Source: a virus. From it: DNA of 28,412 nt. Both the position numbers and the translations under genes were made by a program. The notes under the pieces are model-generated. The model was not told the DNA's origin. It did not search any database and worked only from the letters and a program-made list of their open reading frames with translations. The DNA lies in IMG/VR virus record IMGVR_UViG_3300042465_003715, positions 1 to 28,412 of that record; one strand, given 5' to 3'. How positions within the stretch are numbered: position 1 is the stretch's first letter; each line of letters opens with the position of its first letter. Shown here one piece after another: positions 9,621 through 28,412 of the stretch.

Positions 9621-10025
9621 ATGGTTTACATTAATACAGACGGATCATGTGATTGTTCCTCAAAAGAAGGTGGGTGGTCTTACATAGCAGAGGGGAAATC
9701 TTACTCTGGTAGGGAATGGGACACCACATGTAATCGTATGGAACTTATGGCGGCGATTAAAGCCTTGGAACATTTCGGAGAACCACAAGAGATAATCATT
9801 CTTTCCGACTCACAATATGTTGTTCAGGGGATAAGTCGTCACATTAAAGGATGGTTAAAAAATGGCTGGAAGAACTACAAAAACCAACCAGTGAAGAATA
9901 AAGACCTTTGGTTAAATTTATTGGCCGCGAAAAATAATCATAATCAGGTTGTTTTTAAATGGGTGCCGCGCCAAAATAATTCAAAAGCAGATGAGGCCGC
10001 AAGAAAAGCTAGGGGTGTAAATTAA
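9621..10025 (+). CDS. rnhA: Ribonuclease HI
   Basis: A 134-residue protein with the RNase H fold signature. It should cleave the RNA strand of RNA-DNA hybrids, for example replication primers or R-loops. The carboxylates that bind two metal ions are visible: Asp7 in NTDGS, Glu41 in NRMELMAA, Asp63 in LSDSQYV and Asp124 in SKADEAARKA. The loop before the last Asp reads KWVPRQNNSKAD, so the His usually found there (KGHAG-type in bacterial enzymes) is missing. The length is slightly below typical bacterial RNase HI. The ATG follows GGGG directly and a TATTAT box lies at 9610-9615, so the leader may be very short; no good -35 was found. It heads the rightward unit, directly after the G-rich repeat. 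Confidence 0.93.
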   Translation: MVYINTDGSCDCSSKEGGWSYIAEGKSYSGREWDTTCNRMELMAAIKALEHFGEPQEIIILSDSQYVVQGISRHIKGWLKNGWKNYKNQPVKNKDLWLNLLAAKNNHNQVVFKWVPRQNNSKADEAARKARGVN

Positions 10026-11507: not shown

Positions 11508-11924
11508 ATGAAACGACAAATTAAATTTCGAGTCTGGGATAATCACGGAAAAATTTTTCGCCGCGCCAATATCGAAGGGTCAAAAAACAGTGCATGGGGA
11601 ATTACAATTAATCGCGGAATCTTCTCTCTTGAATCTACGGAAGGACTCACTTATCAACAATTCACTGGTTTATTTGACTCTCAAGGAAAAGAAATTTACG
11701 AAGGTGACATTTACAACCTAGAAACCCACTGCGTTAACCCATACTATTGTGTGTTCTTTGACGGTTGCTACTGGAACAAAAGATGCGGCCAAACCCAAGA
11801 AGACTTTCTTAAAACGCACGTTAACGTCCACCCAACAATGACTCACGATTTAAGATCAAGCCATAAAGCGGCGAAAATAATTGGCAACATTTTTGAGAAC
11901 CCAGAATTACTTTCTACTGTGTAA
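11508..11924 (+). CDS. YopX-family protein, copy 1
   Basis: A 138-residue protein with the YopX family pattern: an N-terminal KRQIKFRVWD, a central QQFTGLFDSQGKEIYEGDIY and a C-terminal KIIGNIFENPELL. The family is common in phages and prophages and has no firmly established function. Two more copies lie at 13342-13746 and 13751-14152; this one is separated from them by a virion-type gene and two small genes. Its middle (ETHCVNPYYCVFFDGCYWNK) differs from the other copies and is Cys-rich. No Shine-Dalgarno sequence is visible; a weak TTGATA...TAATAC pair upstream has a 19-base spacer and is not counted as a promoter. Confidence 0.85.
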   Translation: MKRQIKFRVWDNHGKIFRRANIEGSKNSAWGITINRGIFSLESTEGLTYQQFTGLFDSQGKEIYEGDIYNLETHCVNPYYCVFFDGCYWNKRCGQTQEDFLKTHVNVHPTMTHDLRSSHKAAKIIGNIFENPELLSTV

Positions 11925-13187: not shown

Positions 13188-13340
13188 ATGAAAGACACCC
13201 AAATTATCTACCAAGAAGAAGACCTTGACCTCGTAATGAGTTATTTTGTCAAGGATTATAACACTAAATTCATTGATTTTGAATGGTTTTTAGACGCGGC
13301 CAAAAATAAAGTGGTATTTAAACTTGTCGTTGAAAAATAA
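13188..13340 (+). CDS. Very small acidic protein of unknown function
   Basis: A 50-residue reading frame starting MKDTQIIYQEEDLDLVMSYF, one base after the preceding stop and one base before the next start. This tight packing is the main support for it being real. It is acidic, soluble and likely helix-strand in form, with a hydrophobic last third (NKVVFKLVVEK). No motif is recognised. Confidence 0.55.
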   Translation: MKDTQIIYQEEDLDLVMSYFVKDYNTKFIDFEWFLDAAKNKVVFKLVVEK

Positions 13341-13341
13341 T

Positions 13342-13746
13342 ATGAGCCGCCAAATTAAATTCCGCGTTTGGAATACTTATCAGAAAAAATTCTACGCCCA
13401 AAGTAAAGTGGCCTTTACTGGAGATGGCACGCCATTATTTTTTGATTGGCATGAGGATAGTGAAATGTCATGGCAGCATGACTGTTATAATTCTCCTGAT
13501 AATGGCCTGAGAGTAACTCAACAATCTACTGGAGTTTTCGACCAAAACGATAAAGAAATCTATGAAGGCGATATAGTTAGATGGGATGGTCCGCACGAAT
13601 CCGAGTGGCTAGGTGACGTTAAGTATGACGCTCCTAGCTTTATGGTTTGTTGGAAGAAATCTCCCTATCAAACGCTGCCATCAGTGTTGGACAAGCATGT
13701 GGTTGTAGTGGGGAATGTGTTTGAGAATCAGGAATTGTTGAAATAA
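13342..13746 (+). CDS. YopX-family protein, copy 2
   Basis: A 134-residue protein with SRQIKFRVWN at the start, QQSTGVFDQNDKEIYEGDIV in the middle and VVVGNVFENQELL at the end, the same three blocks as copy 1. The ATG at 13342 is chosen over an upstream frame start because it aligns with the start of the other copies and follows the preceding stop by one base. The central block is shifted from QFTG to QSTG. The gene lies four bases before copy 3. Confidence 0.85.
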   Translation: MSRQIKFRVWNTYQKKFYAQSKVAFTGDGTPLFFDWHEDSEMSWQHDCYNSPDNGLRVTQQSTGVFDQNDKEIYEGDIVRWDGPHESEWLGDVKYDAPSFMVCWKKSPYQTLPSVLDKHVVVVGNVFENQELLK

Positions 13747-13750
13747 TTTT

Positions 13751-14152
13751 ATGCAGCGCAAATTTAAATTCCGAGTTTGGGATATTCAACATAAGAAATT
13801 TATTCGGCCCGACTATTTTTCTATAGGTTTAGACGGAACACTGATTCAGCGCGTCATTTGTTATGGCGACGACCCTGGAAATACTTGGGACGATTCGTGG
13901 AATGAGGAATTGGATGATGATAAGTATGAGGTTCAGCAATTCACTGGTTTATCCGACAAGAATGGGCGGGAAATTTATGAGGGCGATATTATCTCTGGTT
14001 CATTCTACGATGAAGAGTATCGTCACGCAAAAACTTTAAATGCGGCAGTAGCATTCAATAATGGAGCATTTAATATCTCGTCAACTAATTGGCACAAGCC
14101 TTTGTTAAAGGTAATTGGGAATATTTTTGAGGATTCGGCGCTTTTGGGTTAA
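13751..14152 (+). CDS. YopX-family protein, copy 3
   Basis: A 133-residue protein with QRKFKFRVWD, VQQFTGLSDKNGREIYEGDI and LKVIGNIFEDSALL. It is adjacent to copy 2, suggesting tandem duplication, but its inner sequence is clearly different, so the duplication is old or the copies were gained separately. It ends 73 bases before the tail tube gene; that gap contains an imperfect hairpin (about 14168-14191) and a five-base stem just before the next ATG, with no convincing promoter. Confidence 0.85.
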   Translation: MQRKFKFRVWDIQHKKFIRPDYFSIGLDGTLIQRVICYGDDPGNTWDDSWNEELDDDKYEVQQFTGLSDKNGREIYEGDIISGSFYDEEYRHAKTLNAAVAFNNGAFNISSTNWHKPLLKVIGNIFEDSALLG

Positions 14153-15404: not shown

Positions 15405-15436
15405 AAATACACGTCTTTAATCGGACGTGTATTTTG
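15405..15436 (+). terminator. Terminator at the convergence of the tail tube and HNH genes
   Basis: AAATACACGTC (15405-15415) and GACGTGTATTT (15424-15434) form an 11-base stem with an eight-base loop. On the + strand the stem runs into TTTTGTTG, so it should end transcription of the tail tube unit. The stop codon of the leftward HNH gene (15417-15419) lies in the loop, so the same hairpin lies at the end of both genes, though its T-run on the minus strand is weak. Confidence 0.75.
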
Positions 15437-16238
15437 TTGTGGGGAATATGAATGATTTTTCATACTTCTTGTAGTTTGGGGAGACGTACTCTATAAACTT
15501 CCCGCTTTCAACAAAATGATGATAAACTCTGCTGATAAGATTAACCCAATCGTAGTAGCTTAATTTAAGTTTAGACCTGTTGCACTTTTCGCAACATGTG
15601 ACTACGTTGGATTTCAAATACCCTTGTTTTGGATCAACTCTGTCCAGTCCGTGTTTTAAATATTTAATTCCAGCCTTCTTGTCCTGTAAAACCTTTTCTG
15701 GTTTTTTGCCGCAATAAAAACAATCTTGTACAGAAAGATGTTTATAAGTTTCTAGGTCTATATTTGGAGTGGAACCGTATTCTTCTGAAAGCCTTAGCGC
15801 CCTCAACATTTCCCTTTTCCAAAGTTGCTCGTCCCTATCTGGGTTTCTCCTTTTACATCCACAAGACGCGGTTTTAAGATTTACGACTTCTCCAGCGGAG
15901 ATTTCTTTTTCAATTCCGCAATCGCATTTAAATAGCCAGACAATACTCTTTCTATATCTTTTCTCCGTTGGTTTTAGGGCCGTAAGCATTCCAAATTTCT
16001 GTCCAGTTATATCTTGAGCCCTATTCCCAGTATGTTGCTTGCAGCCACAAGAATTACTGCCCGCAGCGTTTCTAAGATTACAAGAAATAACGACATGATC
16101 CTTTGTGCCACAATCACAATCGCACTTATAATATAACTTGTTTTTGCCGCGACTATTTTTCGCGTAGAATCCAGTATGAGGAGTGAGCATTCCGAACTTA
16201 CGTCCGACTTTTGTTTGAGGTGGTTTTGTAGCTGCCAT
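15417..16238 (-). CDS. HNH homing endonuclease with two N-terminal zinc-binding repeats
   Basis: A 273-residue protein with three parts. Residues about 10-66 and 77-128 are two copies of a GxKFGMLT...CDCG...SCGC repeat; Cys39/41/43 with Cys64/66 and Cys105/107 with Cys126/128 can bind metal. Residues about 165-235 are an HNH nuclease: CFYCGKKP, HGLDRVDPKQGYLKSN, then CCEKCNRSK, with the Cys pairs holding zinc. Proteins of this build are usual among phage homing endonucleases, which cut a cognate site so that their gene is copied in. It sits between a terminator and the tail tube terminator with no virion role evident, consistent with a mobile insertion between the head and tail genes. Confidence 0.88.
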   Translation of the reverse strand: MAATKPPQTKVGRKFGMLTPHTGFYAKNSRGKNKLYYKCDCDCGTKDHVVISCNLRNAAGSNSCGCKQHTGNRAQDITGQKFGMLTALKPTEKRYRKSIVWLFKCDCGIEKEISAGEVVNLKTASCGCKRRNPDRDEQLWKREMLRALRLSEEYGSTPNIDLETYKHLSVQDCFYCGKKPEKVLQDKKAGIKYLKHGLDRVDPKQGYLKSNVVTCCEKCNRSKLKLSYYDWVNLISRVYHHFVESGKFIEYVSPNYKKYEKSFIFPTTKYTSD

Positions 16239-16918: not shown

Positions 16919-17932
16919 TCATGGTGTATATGCGTAGCCGAGAGATTCGTAATAATCTTGTGGCGATAAAATGTTTGGGCCGTAGCGAGGATTCTTTTCG
17001 ATAAAATCGTAAACTAATTTATGCTTGCGCCACAAAGAAGGAGATGGGAGACTGTATAGTGCTTTTGCAAATTCAACAGCACCAAGTCCGCCCTTGGTTA
17101 CTCGATATAACCCTGTTTGATCGCGGCCAACTTTAACTGGTCCGTGTGTTTGAGAAAAATCATTAATTCTTGAACATATAGCCTCAACAATATCTGGAAC
17201 CGCACCAACCGCTGTATAATCCAAGTATCTATTTTGTCTGACTCCCCAATACCCATCCCCGTCAGAAAAGCCTTTGAAATAATGGTCCATCAAGTGAGAA
17301 GGAATATTTGGCAACTTTAATTTGTGGGTTTTAGCGGGAACAATGTTATAAATATCAGCCAAAGGCTCAATCCAATCCTTACAAACAATTCTTAGTTCGG
17401 CCATTTTACTTCCGTGAGGAGCGGTGGAGTATCTTATGGGATGATTCGCTCCTAGAAAATGGGAGAGCATTCTTAAATATCCATCATCTATTCTGCATAT
17501 ACTAATAGCTAATAGTGGAGATGTGCCAGTGACAGACACACATCCATCGGCAGCTATAAACCCAGCAATGGCGCAATTAATTGGATTCGGCTCGTTCCAA
17601 AACTCTTTATTGTAAGAATAGATGGCGCGGTCAAACTGACTTTTAAACCCAAGTTGCGAAGCTTTAATTCTAATAGCCAAAGGGGTTCTGCCGATTATCT
17701 TTTCTATCGCCGAATGTGAAAGTCCTTCTTTAAGGAGAAGCTCCAAATGTTCAATTTCATCTTCGCCCCAATCTGGATTTTTCTTTTTACTGGGAAAAAA
17801 TTTATGAAAGTGACGACTAGTAATGGAGACGCTTAGATTGAGTTCCTTACAAATATCGGCTATTCGTAAACCCTCTTCTCCCAAGGATTTAATTTTTAAT
17901 ATCTGGTCTTGACTGATTGATAATGCTGGCAT
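16919..17932 (-). CDS. LAGLIDADG homing endonuclease with two helix-turn-helix domains
   Basis: A 337-residue protein from ATG 17932-17930 (a TTG one codon earlier is less likely). Two LAGLIDADG-type motifs are visible, CAIAGFIAADG at about residues 120-130 and HYFKGFSDGDG at about 217-227; their acidic residues bind the catalytic metal, so a single chain with both half-sites is expected. In front are two helical DNA-binding segments, about residues 8-46 (ISQDQILKIKSLGEEGLRIA) and 56-96 (WGEDEIEHLELLLKEGLSHS), the second like a Myb/SANT or recombinase-type helix-turn-helix. The gene is free-standing, squeezed between two capsid-unit genes with gaps of 15 and 34 bases. Both motifs retain their acidic residues, so it may be active. 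Confidence 0.9.
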   Translation of the reverse strand: MPALSISQDQILKIKSLGEEGLRIADICKELNLSVSITSRHFHKFFPSKKKNPDWGEDEIEHLELLLKEGLSHSAIEKIIGRTPLAIRIKASQLGFKSQFDRAIYSYNKEFWNEPNPINCAIAGFIAADGCVSVTGTSPLLAISICRIDDGYLRMLSHFLGANHPIRYSTAPHGSKMAELRIVCKDWIEPLADIYNIVPAKTHKLKLPNIPSHLMDHYFKGFSDGDGYWGVRQNRYLDYTAVGAVPDIVEAICSRINDFSQTHGPVKVGRDQTGLYRVTKGGLGAVEFAKALYSLPSPSLWRKHKLVYDFIEKNPRYGPNILSPQDYYESLGYAYTP

Positions 17933-17966
17933 CAATCAAATAAACGTAAGTCTTGCCCCTAATCTA

Positions 17967-21782: not shown

Positions 21783-21835
21783 CCAATAATTTACACCATT
21801 GAAAGATTTGGCCCTTGGATTACGTTTACTCGGCA

Positions 21836-22471
21836 ATGAAAAAACACGGAAGATTTAAACACGGCCTCATGGACTCAACATCTTATGCCATTTGGAAAAG
21901 CATGAGGACGAGGTGTTGTAATAAGAATTGCGCGGCTTATAAACATTATGGCGGAAGGGGCATTAAAATTTGTCAGAGGTGGATGGACAGTTTTGAAAAT
22001 TTTCTCAACGATATGGGGGAAAGGCCGTCAATGGAGCATACTCTTGACCGAATAGATAATAACGGCGATTACTGCGTGGAGAACTGTCGGTGGGCAACGC
22101 AACTGGAGCAAAAGAATAATACAAGAAAGAATGCGTTTCTATCTTTTAACGGGAAAACTCAAACCATCGCTTATTGGGCCAGAGAACTTAACTTAAGTCC
22201 AGCCACTATTTCAGGTCGCTATCAAAGGGGATTGAGCGATATAGACTGTCTTTCCACTCCAGAATCGCATGGGTTTGTAAATGAAGACATAGTGCGAGAA
22301 ATCTTTCTTTTAAGGAGTCAGGGGAAAACAATGAAGGAAATTGGAGAACCTTTAAACCTGAAAGCTTCCACCGTTTGTAATATTTTAAATAGAAAGGCGT
22401 GGACAAAAGTTCAAATAGCAGACTCTATCCTTTTAAAAATAAAAGAACTGTTTTCGCGCAATTCTTCTTGA
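21836..22471 (+). CDS. HNH homing endonuclease with C-terminal helix-turn-helix
   Basis: A 211-residue protein from ATG 21836. Residues about 15-60 carry the phage HNH companion motif (YKHYGGRGIKICQRWMDSFE), and residues about 67-97 the core HTLDRIDNNGDYCVENCRWA followed by EQKNNTR. Behind this are two short DNA-binding segments: ISFNGK-like NUMOD-type sequence (SFNGKTQTIAYWARELNLSP) and a helix-turn-helix (LRSQGKTMKEIGEPLNLKAS). It probably cuts a site near the portal-protease border and spreads by repair. It is divergent from the protease gene, overlapping the possible upstream start, and on the opposite strand from the head genes. Confidence 0.88.
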   Translation: MKKHGRFKHGLMDSTSYAIWKSMRTRCCNKNCAAYKHYGGRGIKICQRWMDSFENFLNDMGERPSMEHTLDRIDNNGDYCVENCRWATQLEQKNNTRKNAFLSFNGKTQTIAYWARELNLSPATISGRYQRGLSDIDCLSTPESHGFVNEDIVREIFLLRSQGKTMKEIGEPLNLKASTVCNILNRKAWTKVQIADSILLKIKELFSRNSS

Positions 22472-26370: not shown

Positions 26371-28412
26371 TCAACAAATAAACGGCTCAAATGTTCCGTA
26401 ATCGTCTTCCTCTGGCATTTTAAGCATATCAAAATAAACCTTCTTTCCCCAGTTACCCAACACTAACGCAGAATATAAGTCCTTGCGGGCGCGATTATTT
26501 CCTCTTTGACTTTTCAGGTTCTTCGGAAGGTCGAAACTTTGATGCCCACTAGGGGTCGAAGACACTTCAATCATAGCACACTGAGTTTTCGTCAGGGTAA
26601 TGAGGTCTTTAAGGTTCTCAACAAAGTCAACCTCAGTAGCCACAAAACCTTTCTCTTCTTTCATGAATTTTAGGTCTTTAAGAAGAGAAGCTCTACTAGT
26701 TTGTCTTTTAAAATCATCGTCCATCGCCATACCCGCGAACATTAAGTCTTTTTTGTCAAACGATCTTTGGAGTAATTCATTCCCAGAACGGATCCACACG
26801 TTGGAGGGTTTGCGTAAAATGCAAATGCGTTTGTCGGTTAGATTATAAGAGTTTCTTACCTCTTGAATATTTTTGTTGTATTCTTCAGGGTTCTCGATTT
26901 CAACGTCAATAGTTTTGATTTCTATTTTTGCGTCCTTAAAAAGCTGACTTTCGTTGCATGAGGCAATAAATTGTGCGCCACCCATAAAGTCAACCGTCAT
27001 GAATTTTATGTTGAAGTTCTTTAGCAGATACAGAAAATACGCAATATGGTCTTTGGGCGCTCCGCCCGCGATAGCATAAGGGTGAACGACAGTTCCGCTT
27101 TCATTTCCTTCGTCTAGCTTAATAACCTGCATGGCGAAATAATCGGAAGACTCACTCTCGGACCAGGAAGGGTCCAGACTTAAGATGTATGAACTATTAA
27201 CATCTCCAAACGACTCCACGCATTCTCCCACGCCATCTCCGAAAGTGCAAGCCATCATCTTCGAAATCTTGTAAAACCCAGAGCTATCAGAAACAAAAAT
27301 ACTACGAAATTCTCTATCCATTTGAGCCTCAGACATTTCCTCCTTAGCCTTCTCCAATAGCGCGGGATCATACAATGCTTTCGGAACAGCGTCATAGGCC
27401 ATGTGGAAAATACTATAATGGGCATCCTTGTTTTTGCCGCTCAAAATAAATTCCTCATACTGTTTGTACATCGTGTACAAATGTTCAAAGGAATATGAGG
27501 CGGAAGATAAACCAATGATTTTATTGCTCGGCCATTTTTTCCTATCTTCCTCCTTCATCTTCCCCTGCTCGATCAGAATAGTTTCGGCCTTAGCGACCTT
27601 TTCTCTTTCCGTGGGGTTAGTGACGACAGCAAGGAACGGAATAATGATTTCATTGATGATCTTCGCTGGCATCAAAAGAAGTTCGTCCATGACCATCACT
27701 TGAAAGCGAAATCCTCGAAGTTTTTCGCCTTGACCCAATGGAAGTGCTGTGATTTTACTTTGACCAATCTCAATATTCCATTCGTCATTCTGGAAGGAGG
27801 TTTTCGTGATGCATTTGTGTAGCAACTTAGCCTCTGGCGTCCCAGAAATATCCATGATTTTTTTCATGATACCCTTGGATTGCCTAAAGCTAGCCGAGAT
27901 AACCCCAATATGAACACCTTGATTTAAAGCAGCGTAAAGAGCTAAGAAGATACCGCATGAGAAAGTATTGTGACTAATGATACCATCTGAAACATAACAC
28001 TCCTCTTTGTCAACCTGAATATCCACCGTAACGTTTTCAGACACATCTTTCGAAATTACGCGAGAATAAAATAAACCATCCCTCGTTAATTCTAAAAGCT
28101 TTAAACGATCACTTTCATCTAAAAAACCGCTATCAACGCATCTTTGAATCCATTTGCGAGAAGTTTTTTCTCTAAATGTTAGCTTTACATATTTTCTTTT
28201 CCCAGCAGTCCAGCAAAAAGATTTTTTACCATATTTTTTTTCTAAATACGGCCCAATAAAAGGAATGTAGTTGGAGAACTCGCCACTGGTATAAAGATAA
28301 GAGTCTAATTCATTTAAACTATTCTGCTTCCTAGTAAGACCAAAGCCAATTTTCTCCCTAAAACGAGAAACAGAATCGTATCCGCTAATGTCGATAGCAA
28401 AAGCTGGGCGGC
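26371..28412 (-). CDS. terL: Terminase large subunit, interrupted by an intein (5' end outside window)
   Basis: The frame is open from the right edge to TGA at 26373-26371. After an intein C-terminus (to 27967), the terminase begins TFSCGIFLALYAAL, the sequence expected right after the Walker A lysine. Walker B is QVMVMDELLL (around 27685), with Glu next to Asp as the likely catalytic base. The C-terminal RNase H-like nuclease shows Asp in YILSLDPSWSE (about 27165-27185), Asp in FMTVDFMGG (about 26985-27000) and Asp in ARKDLYSALVLG (about 26455-26490). The enzyme powers DNA packaging and cuts concatemers. The ATPase N-terminus, the Walker A itself and the start of the intein lie outside the window. 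A GTG at 28044 could be mistaken for a start, but the frame continues upstream. Portal and protease genes follow. Confidence 0.93.
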   Translation of the reverse strand, partial: RPAFAIDISGYDSVSRFREKIGFGLTRKQNSLNELDSYLYTSGEFSNYIPFIGPYLEKKYGKKSFCWTAGKRKYVKLTFREKTSRKWIQRCVDSGFLDESDRLKLLELTRDGLFYSRVISKDVSENVTVDIQVDKEECYVSDGIISHNTFSCGIFLALYAALNQGVHIGVISASFRQSKGIMKKIMDISGTPEAKLLHKCITKTSFQNDEWNIEIGQSKITALPLGQGEKLRGFRFQVMVMDELLLMPAKIINEIIIPFLAVVTNPTEREKVAKAETILIEQGKMKEEDRKKWPSNKIIGLSSASYSFEHLYTMYKQYEEFILSGKNKDAHYSIFHMAYDAVPKALYDPALLEKAKEEMSEAQMDREFRSIFVSDSSGFYKISKMMACTFGDGVGECVESFGDVNSSYILSLDPSWSESESSDYFAMQVIKLDEGNESGTVVHPYAIAGGAPKDHIAYFLYLLKNFNIKFMTVDFMGGAQFIASCNESQLFKDAKIEIKTIDVEIENPEEYNKNIQEVRNSYNLTDKRICILRKPSNVWIRSGNELLQRSFDKKDLMFAGMAMDDDFKRQTSRASLLKDLKFMKEEKGFVATEVDFVENLKDLITLTKTQCAMIEVSSTPSGHQSFDLPKNLKSQRGNNRARKDLYSALVLGNWGKKVYFDMLKMPEEDDYGTFEPFIC
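27967..28412 (-). other. C-terminal part of an intein within the terminase
   Basis: Translation upstream of 28044 is open to the edge and ends with the splice junction DGIISHN followed by Thr: the penultimate His, the terminal Asn (27969-27967) and a +1 Thr extein residue (27966-27964) are all present. The preceding LFYSRVISKDVSENVTVDIQ matches the usual beta strands of the C-terminal splicing block. Further in, IDISGYDSVSRFREKIGF resembles the end of a LAGLIDADG-type homing endonuclease domain, so the intein is probably large and may carry an endonuclease. About 148 residues are visible. The N-terminal splice site is outside the window. Confidence 0.9.

Follow-up and report, generated by a model that had tools for sequence, protein, structure and literature searches.

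An intein predicted to interrupt the Walker A motif of the large terminase in an uncultured phage

The large terminase (TerL) gene of an uncultured phage carries an intein whose C-terminal splice junction lies where the Walker A lysine meets the following threonine. The DNA analysed, a stretch of 28,412 nucleotides (the window), makes up the whole contig of IMG/VR record IMGVR_UViG_3300042465_003715, a search of the record's own genome having returned the window alone. We consider it highly probable that the element is an intein with predicted splicing and homing, placed between the Walker A Lys and Thr of TerL and allelic to complete inteins found at the same position (site 2) in related phages.

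The gene occupies the minus strand as a 679-aa frame from 28410 to 26371, which reads without stop or frameshift. Its first 148 residues are the C-terminal part of an intein; they end in VTVDIQVDKEECYVSDGIISHN, with GIISHN as the last block, and Thr and FSCGIFLALYAALNQGVHIG come next, opening the terminase portion. Positions 28410 to 28099 represent the C-terminal end of a homing-endonuclease region that runs off the contig, 28098 to 27967 the C-terminal splicing region with blocks F and G, and 27966 to 26371 the C-extein, from the Thr codon (27964-27966) through the stop; the Asn/Thr splice junction thus falls at 27966/27967. The 531-aa C-extein matches phrog_2 (terminase large subunit, E = 7.5e-16) and displays a Walker B-like VMVMDELLL motif and a C-terminal nuclease part. 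Its intein-free sister, L003, matches Terminase_6N above the cut-off. Because the contig stops inside the intein, at 28412, the Walker A motif and the N-termini of both intein and TerL lie outside the window; an exact search found no contig overlapping beyond that point.

Several lines of evidence identify the 148 residues as intein. TIGR01443 (intein_Cterm, NCBIfam) matches residues 130-149 with 16.3 bits, the curated cut-off being 15.6 bits. The same 148 residues match the intein portion of GyrA_w_intein (E = 4e-5) and whole TerL inteins with E values down to 1e-34 and 45% identity; these last matches are far beyond chance. Block F is intact, and class 1 block G is complete, with the penultimate His, the terminal Asn and a +1 Thr. 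On the C side, the open frame of the window and the intein-free alleles L002 and L003 show a class 1 in-frame insertion. Cys1 of block A, which almost every complete site-2 relative has, would lie beyond the contig end. A PDB search with the 148 residues as a single sequence gave no real match; one with a profile of the complete relatives retrieved the VMA, PI-SceI and gp41-1 inteins. The AlphaFold model of the truncated precursor, with a pLDDT of 59, is unreliable. Rfam models, those for self-splicing introns among them, gave no match at threshold within the window. The initial annotation had read an intein and a large terminase in one uninterrupted frame, and TIGR01443, phrog_2 and the whole-intein homologues all agree with this.

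The insertion point can be placed by comparison with uninterrupted genes. Relatives were gathered by profile searches, and an HMM of the mature TerL, together with splice-junction patterns, served to map the sites. The closest IMG/VR terminase to that of the window is L003, along with its copy L002; it is 72% identical over the C-extein and has no intein. Where L003 reads SRGGSK-SFSTAVFLALYA, the window reads HN-TFSCGIFLALYA, and the uninterrupted site sequence of L003/L002 is ...YFMAILSRGGSK-SFSTAVFLALYACLNQGVHIGVIS. In the alignment, the window Thr pairs with the Ser next to the Walker A lysine of L003; since L003 is uninterrupted there, the insert is placed after the Lys of Walker A and before the Ser/Thr. 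The C side of the site aligns residue by residue with the intein-free L003 and the whole L004; the Lys lies beyond the contig end. The originally proposed position, between Lys and Thr of Walker A, is therefore supported by the intein-free L002 and L003 as well as by relatives with a whole intein there (L004, L146-L148, L172 and others). The expectation of an upstream Walker A ending in GK held in part: a Walker A followed by Cys is found in relatives, but the residues preceding the insert are SK rather than GK in nearly all the close ones. The window and L003 also share their downstream gene order: terL is followed by a probable portal gene, a gene of protease/scaffold-like character, one of 205 aa and a probable major capsid gene of 382 aa. 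Except for terL, these names come from gene order and reading, not from profile matches. Directly before its intein-free terL, L003 has a free-standing GIY-YIG endonuclease gene (PF01541; L003:3933-4754).

Whole class 1 inteins occupy exactly the window's site in about twenty related contigs besides L146, L147 and L004, and nearly all contain LAGLIDADG domains. In L004/L005 the intein is complete at 437 aa (GRSFGK-C...VNHN-S), with a LAGLIDADG domain and a C-terminal part 38% identical to the window's. Inteins that begin with Cys after SK/GK and end in HN-S/T are found in L129, L131, L132, L133, L135/L136, L146, L147, L148/L149/L150, L151, L154, L155, L157/L160, L158/L159, L161, L163, L166/L167, L172, L176 and L179. 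The best BLAST hits of the window intein are all at site 2 (L146, 45%, E = 1e-34; L172, 66% over the last 44 aa), and in the intein tree it falls inside a clade of 12 site-2 inteins (support 100/100), sister to the mini-intein of L172 (95/87); we therefore regard it as an allele of these inteins. The site-2 inteins of L193, L195 and L201 seem to begin not with Cys but with Thr (GK-TLSYHN, GK-TIVYNS) or Ser (SK-SVSYSN). Thr as first intein residue would be unusual and might denote another splicing class.

The inner sequence had also suggested a homing endonuclease domain, and homology supports this. Pfam Intein_splicing and LAGLIDADG_3 both score above cut-off in the nearest complete relatives, and LAGLIDADG motifs are present in the complete inteins of L146, L148 and L004; the window displays only the end of the region. 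Because its first ~104 visible intein residues correspond in the alignment to the C-terminal end of the endonuclease region in these full-length relatives, a region lacking in the 224-aa mini-intein of L172, a homing endonuclease is most likely present in the window copy. That this endonuclease is functional is less certain, since the nearest intein in the tree, that of L172, is a mini-intein. A confident AlphaFold model of the L146 intein, built on the family alignment (pLDDT 91.6), has the TliVMA intein, PI-PfuI and PI-SceI as best PDB matches.

For the window gene, then, we infer an N-terminal intein half, splicing and endonuclease activity. The precursor would be translated as a single chain, from which the intein would excise itself by means of its N-terminal Cys (beyond the contig), the terminal Asn and the +1 Thr. 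Joining of Lys to Thr would restore the P-loop and with it the packaging ATPase; from known P-loop biochemistry it is a sound inference that the motor would be inactive before splicing. In mixed infections, the endonuclease would cut the intein-free terL of related phages, allowing the intein to be copied in. One could instead envision a split intein, the terminase being made as two chains joined by trans-splicing, with the C-terminal intein fragment starting near a GTG at 28044. Such a start codon is present, and the contig does not include the N-terminal half; however, over 148 residues, through the endonuclease region and up to the contig end, the reading frame is uninterrupted and shows homology to contiguous inteins, and the complete relatives are all contiguous, making this arrangement very improbable.

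In the terminase tree the intein-bearing window is sister to the intein-free L002. On a quick tree of the TerL family, intein presence changes at least 11 times at site 2 and 16 times at the neighbouring site. Among closely related pairs, clean insertions separate L148 from L169 (1332 bp, 92% DNA identity), L028 from L025 (1218 bp) and L079 from L086 (99.6% identity over the shared part). The sample of intein-bearing terL genes is biased because two of the scans sought inteins; in terminase-only scans, 76 of 81 loci were intein-free, three had an intein at the upstream site and two were undecidable. Site-2 inteins are under purifying selection, with dN/dS of 0.04-0.11 in four pairs; a fifth pair, nearly identical, was uninformative. 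This constraint bears on the idea that the window holds a decayed, non-splicing remnant and a dead terminase. Splicing is only predicted and the N-terminal half lies outside the contig, yet the frame and block F are intact, and so are the penultimate His, the Asn and the Thr at the splice junction; the C-extein is intact as well and lies in a late-gene region without other damage. Together with the strong selection on the allelic inteins, these features leave such decay little likelihood. Least credible of all is a chimera in which assembly fused an unrelated intein to the window terminase. The contig end does fall within the element, but intein and terminase meet in frame, more than 10 independent contigs with homologous inteins have their junction at that residue too, and the nearest kin of the window intein are all site-2 TerL inteins.

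Among the relatives, the TerL family harbours four intein sites around the ATPase core: site 1 (W-SRGxSK), the window's site 2 (SK-S/T), site 3 (FRQ-SKMIF) and site 4, before Walker B (GDG-TKIRG). Intein lineages are mainly site-specific, those at site 1 forming a single clade (98/100). Sites 1 and 2 are both filled in L148/L149/L150/L173 (four samples; the L148 terL frame starts from 1598), L151/L152, L129 and L161, leaving SRGxSK as a six-residue piece of Walker A between two inteins that are 27-31% identical. Such double-intein terL genes were seen in at least four diverged lineages; a narrow pattern search for tandem P-loop inteins returned the four contigs of the L148 group only. Sites 2 and 3 are occupied in L157/L160, and sites 2 and 4 in L179/L180. 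The terL of L176 (frame from 1184) has three inteins, of 414, 144 and 400 aa, at sites 1, 2 and 3, separated by extein pieces of six and about thirty residues of the ATPase core. It is tempting to speculate that the window terminase, like those of L148, L151, L129 and L161, has a second intein six residues upstream, with SRGxSK as a micro-extein between two related but diverged inteins. We regard this as possible, though on balance unlikely; if true, two splicing events would be needed for one ATP-binding loop. The literature searched, itself only part of published work, contained no description of a pair of inteins flanking just the Walker A motif.

The position of the window intein has precedents. 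In mycobacteriophages, TerL1-a inteins separate the invariant Lys of Walker A from the Ser/Thr after it (Kelley et al. 2016, PMC5050341); this "classic" P-loop position is the insertion site seen here. TerL1-b and -c occupy neighbouring sites and have active endonucleases, and sites one residue apart occur in mycobacteriophages (PMC5050341). Since TerL1-a is already described at this site, the window intein is not a new kind; it adds a new case to the Lys/Thr P-loop inteins of TerL. The two differ in that TerL1-a resides in another TerL family with a GK P-loop, whereas the window family has SRGxSK, comes from uncultured phages and has predicted splicing. The terminase of a cultured phage, Psychrobacillus phage Perkons (MT325768, ORF209), likewise has an intein at the window's site (PRGFGK-C...ISHN-T), but its TerL is distant from the window's and its intein is 24% identical to that of L004. 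Inteins inserted right after the Walker A lysine are also known from haloarchaeal MCM-a and archaeal VMA-b (PMC10643990), where the hosts are a cellular helicase and ATP synthase rather than a phage packaging motor. Two inteins in one terL gene, as in the window's relatives, are reported for cyanophage Mic1, where the ATPase and nuclease domains have one each (PMC7156551), and for a crAss-like Delta phage (PMC7886860); the available parts of these two reports do not describe flanking of Walker A.

The window's phage group is uncultured and has no close cultured relative. Its closely related terL genes with 0, 1, 2 or 3 inteins within about 36 residues form a natural series. The series could be used to test competition between neighbouring homing elements, to ask how a six-residue extein between two related inteins is spliced correctly without skipping, and to learn whether splicing times the start of packaging.

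Elsewhere in the window, further homing-endonuclease-like genes lie among the structural genes, at 16919-17935 (-), 15417-16238 (-) and 21815-22471 (+). One of the three is of the LAGLIDADG type (phrog_4645, E = 1.9e-22); the other two are HNH-like by reading only, a Pfam HNH match being absent. Three YopX-domain paralogues (PF09643) at 11508-11924, 13324-13746 and 13751-14152 (+) have a 58-nt repeat in common, and the phage also encodes an RNase H at 9621-10025 (+; PF00075, E = 5.9e-31).
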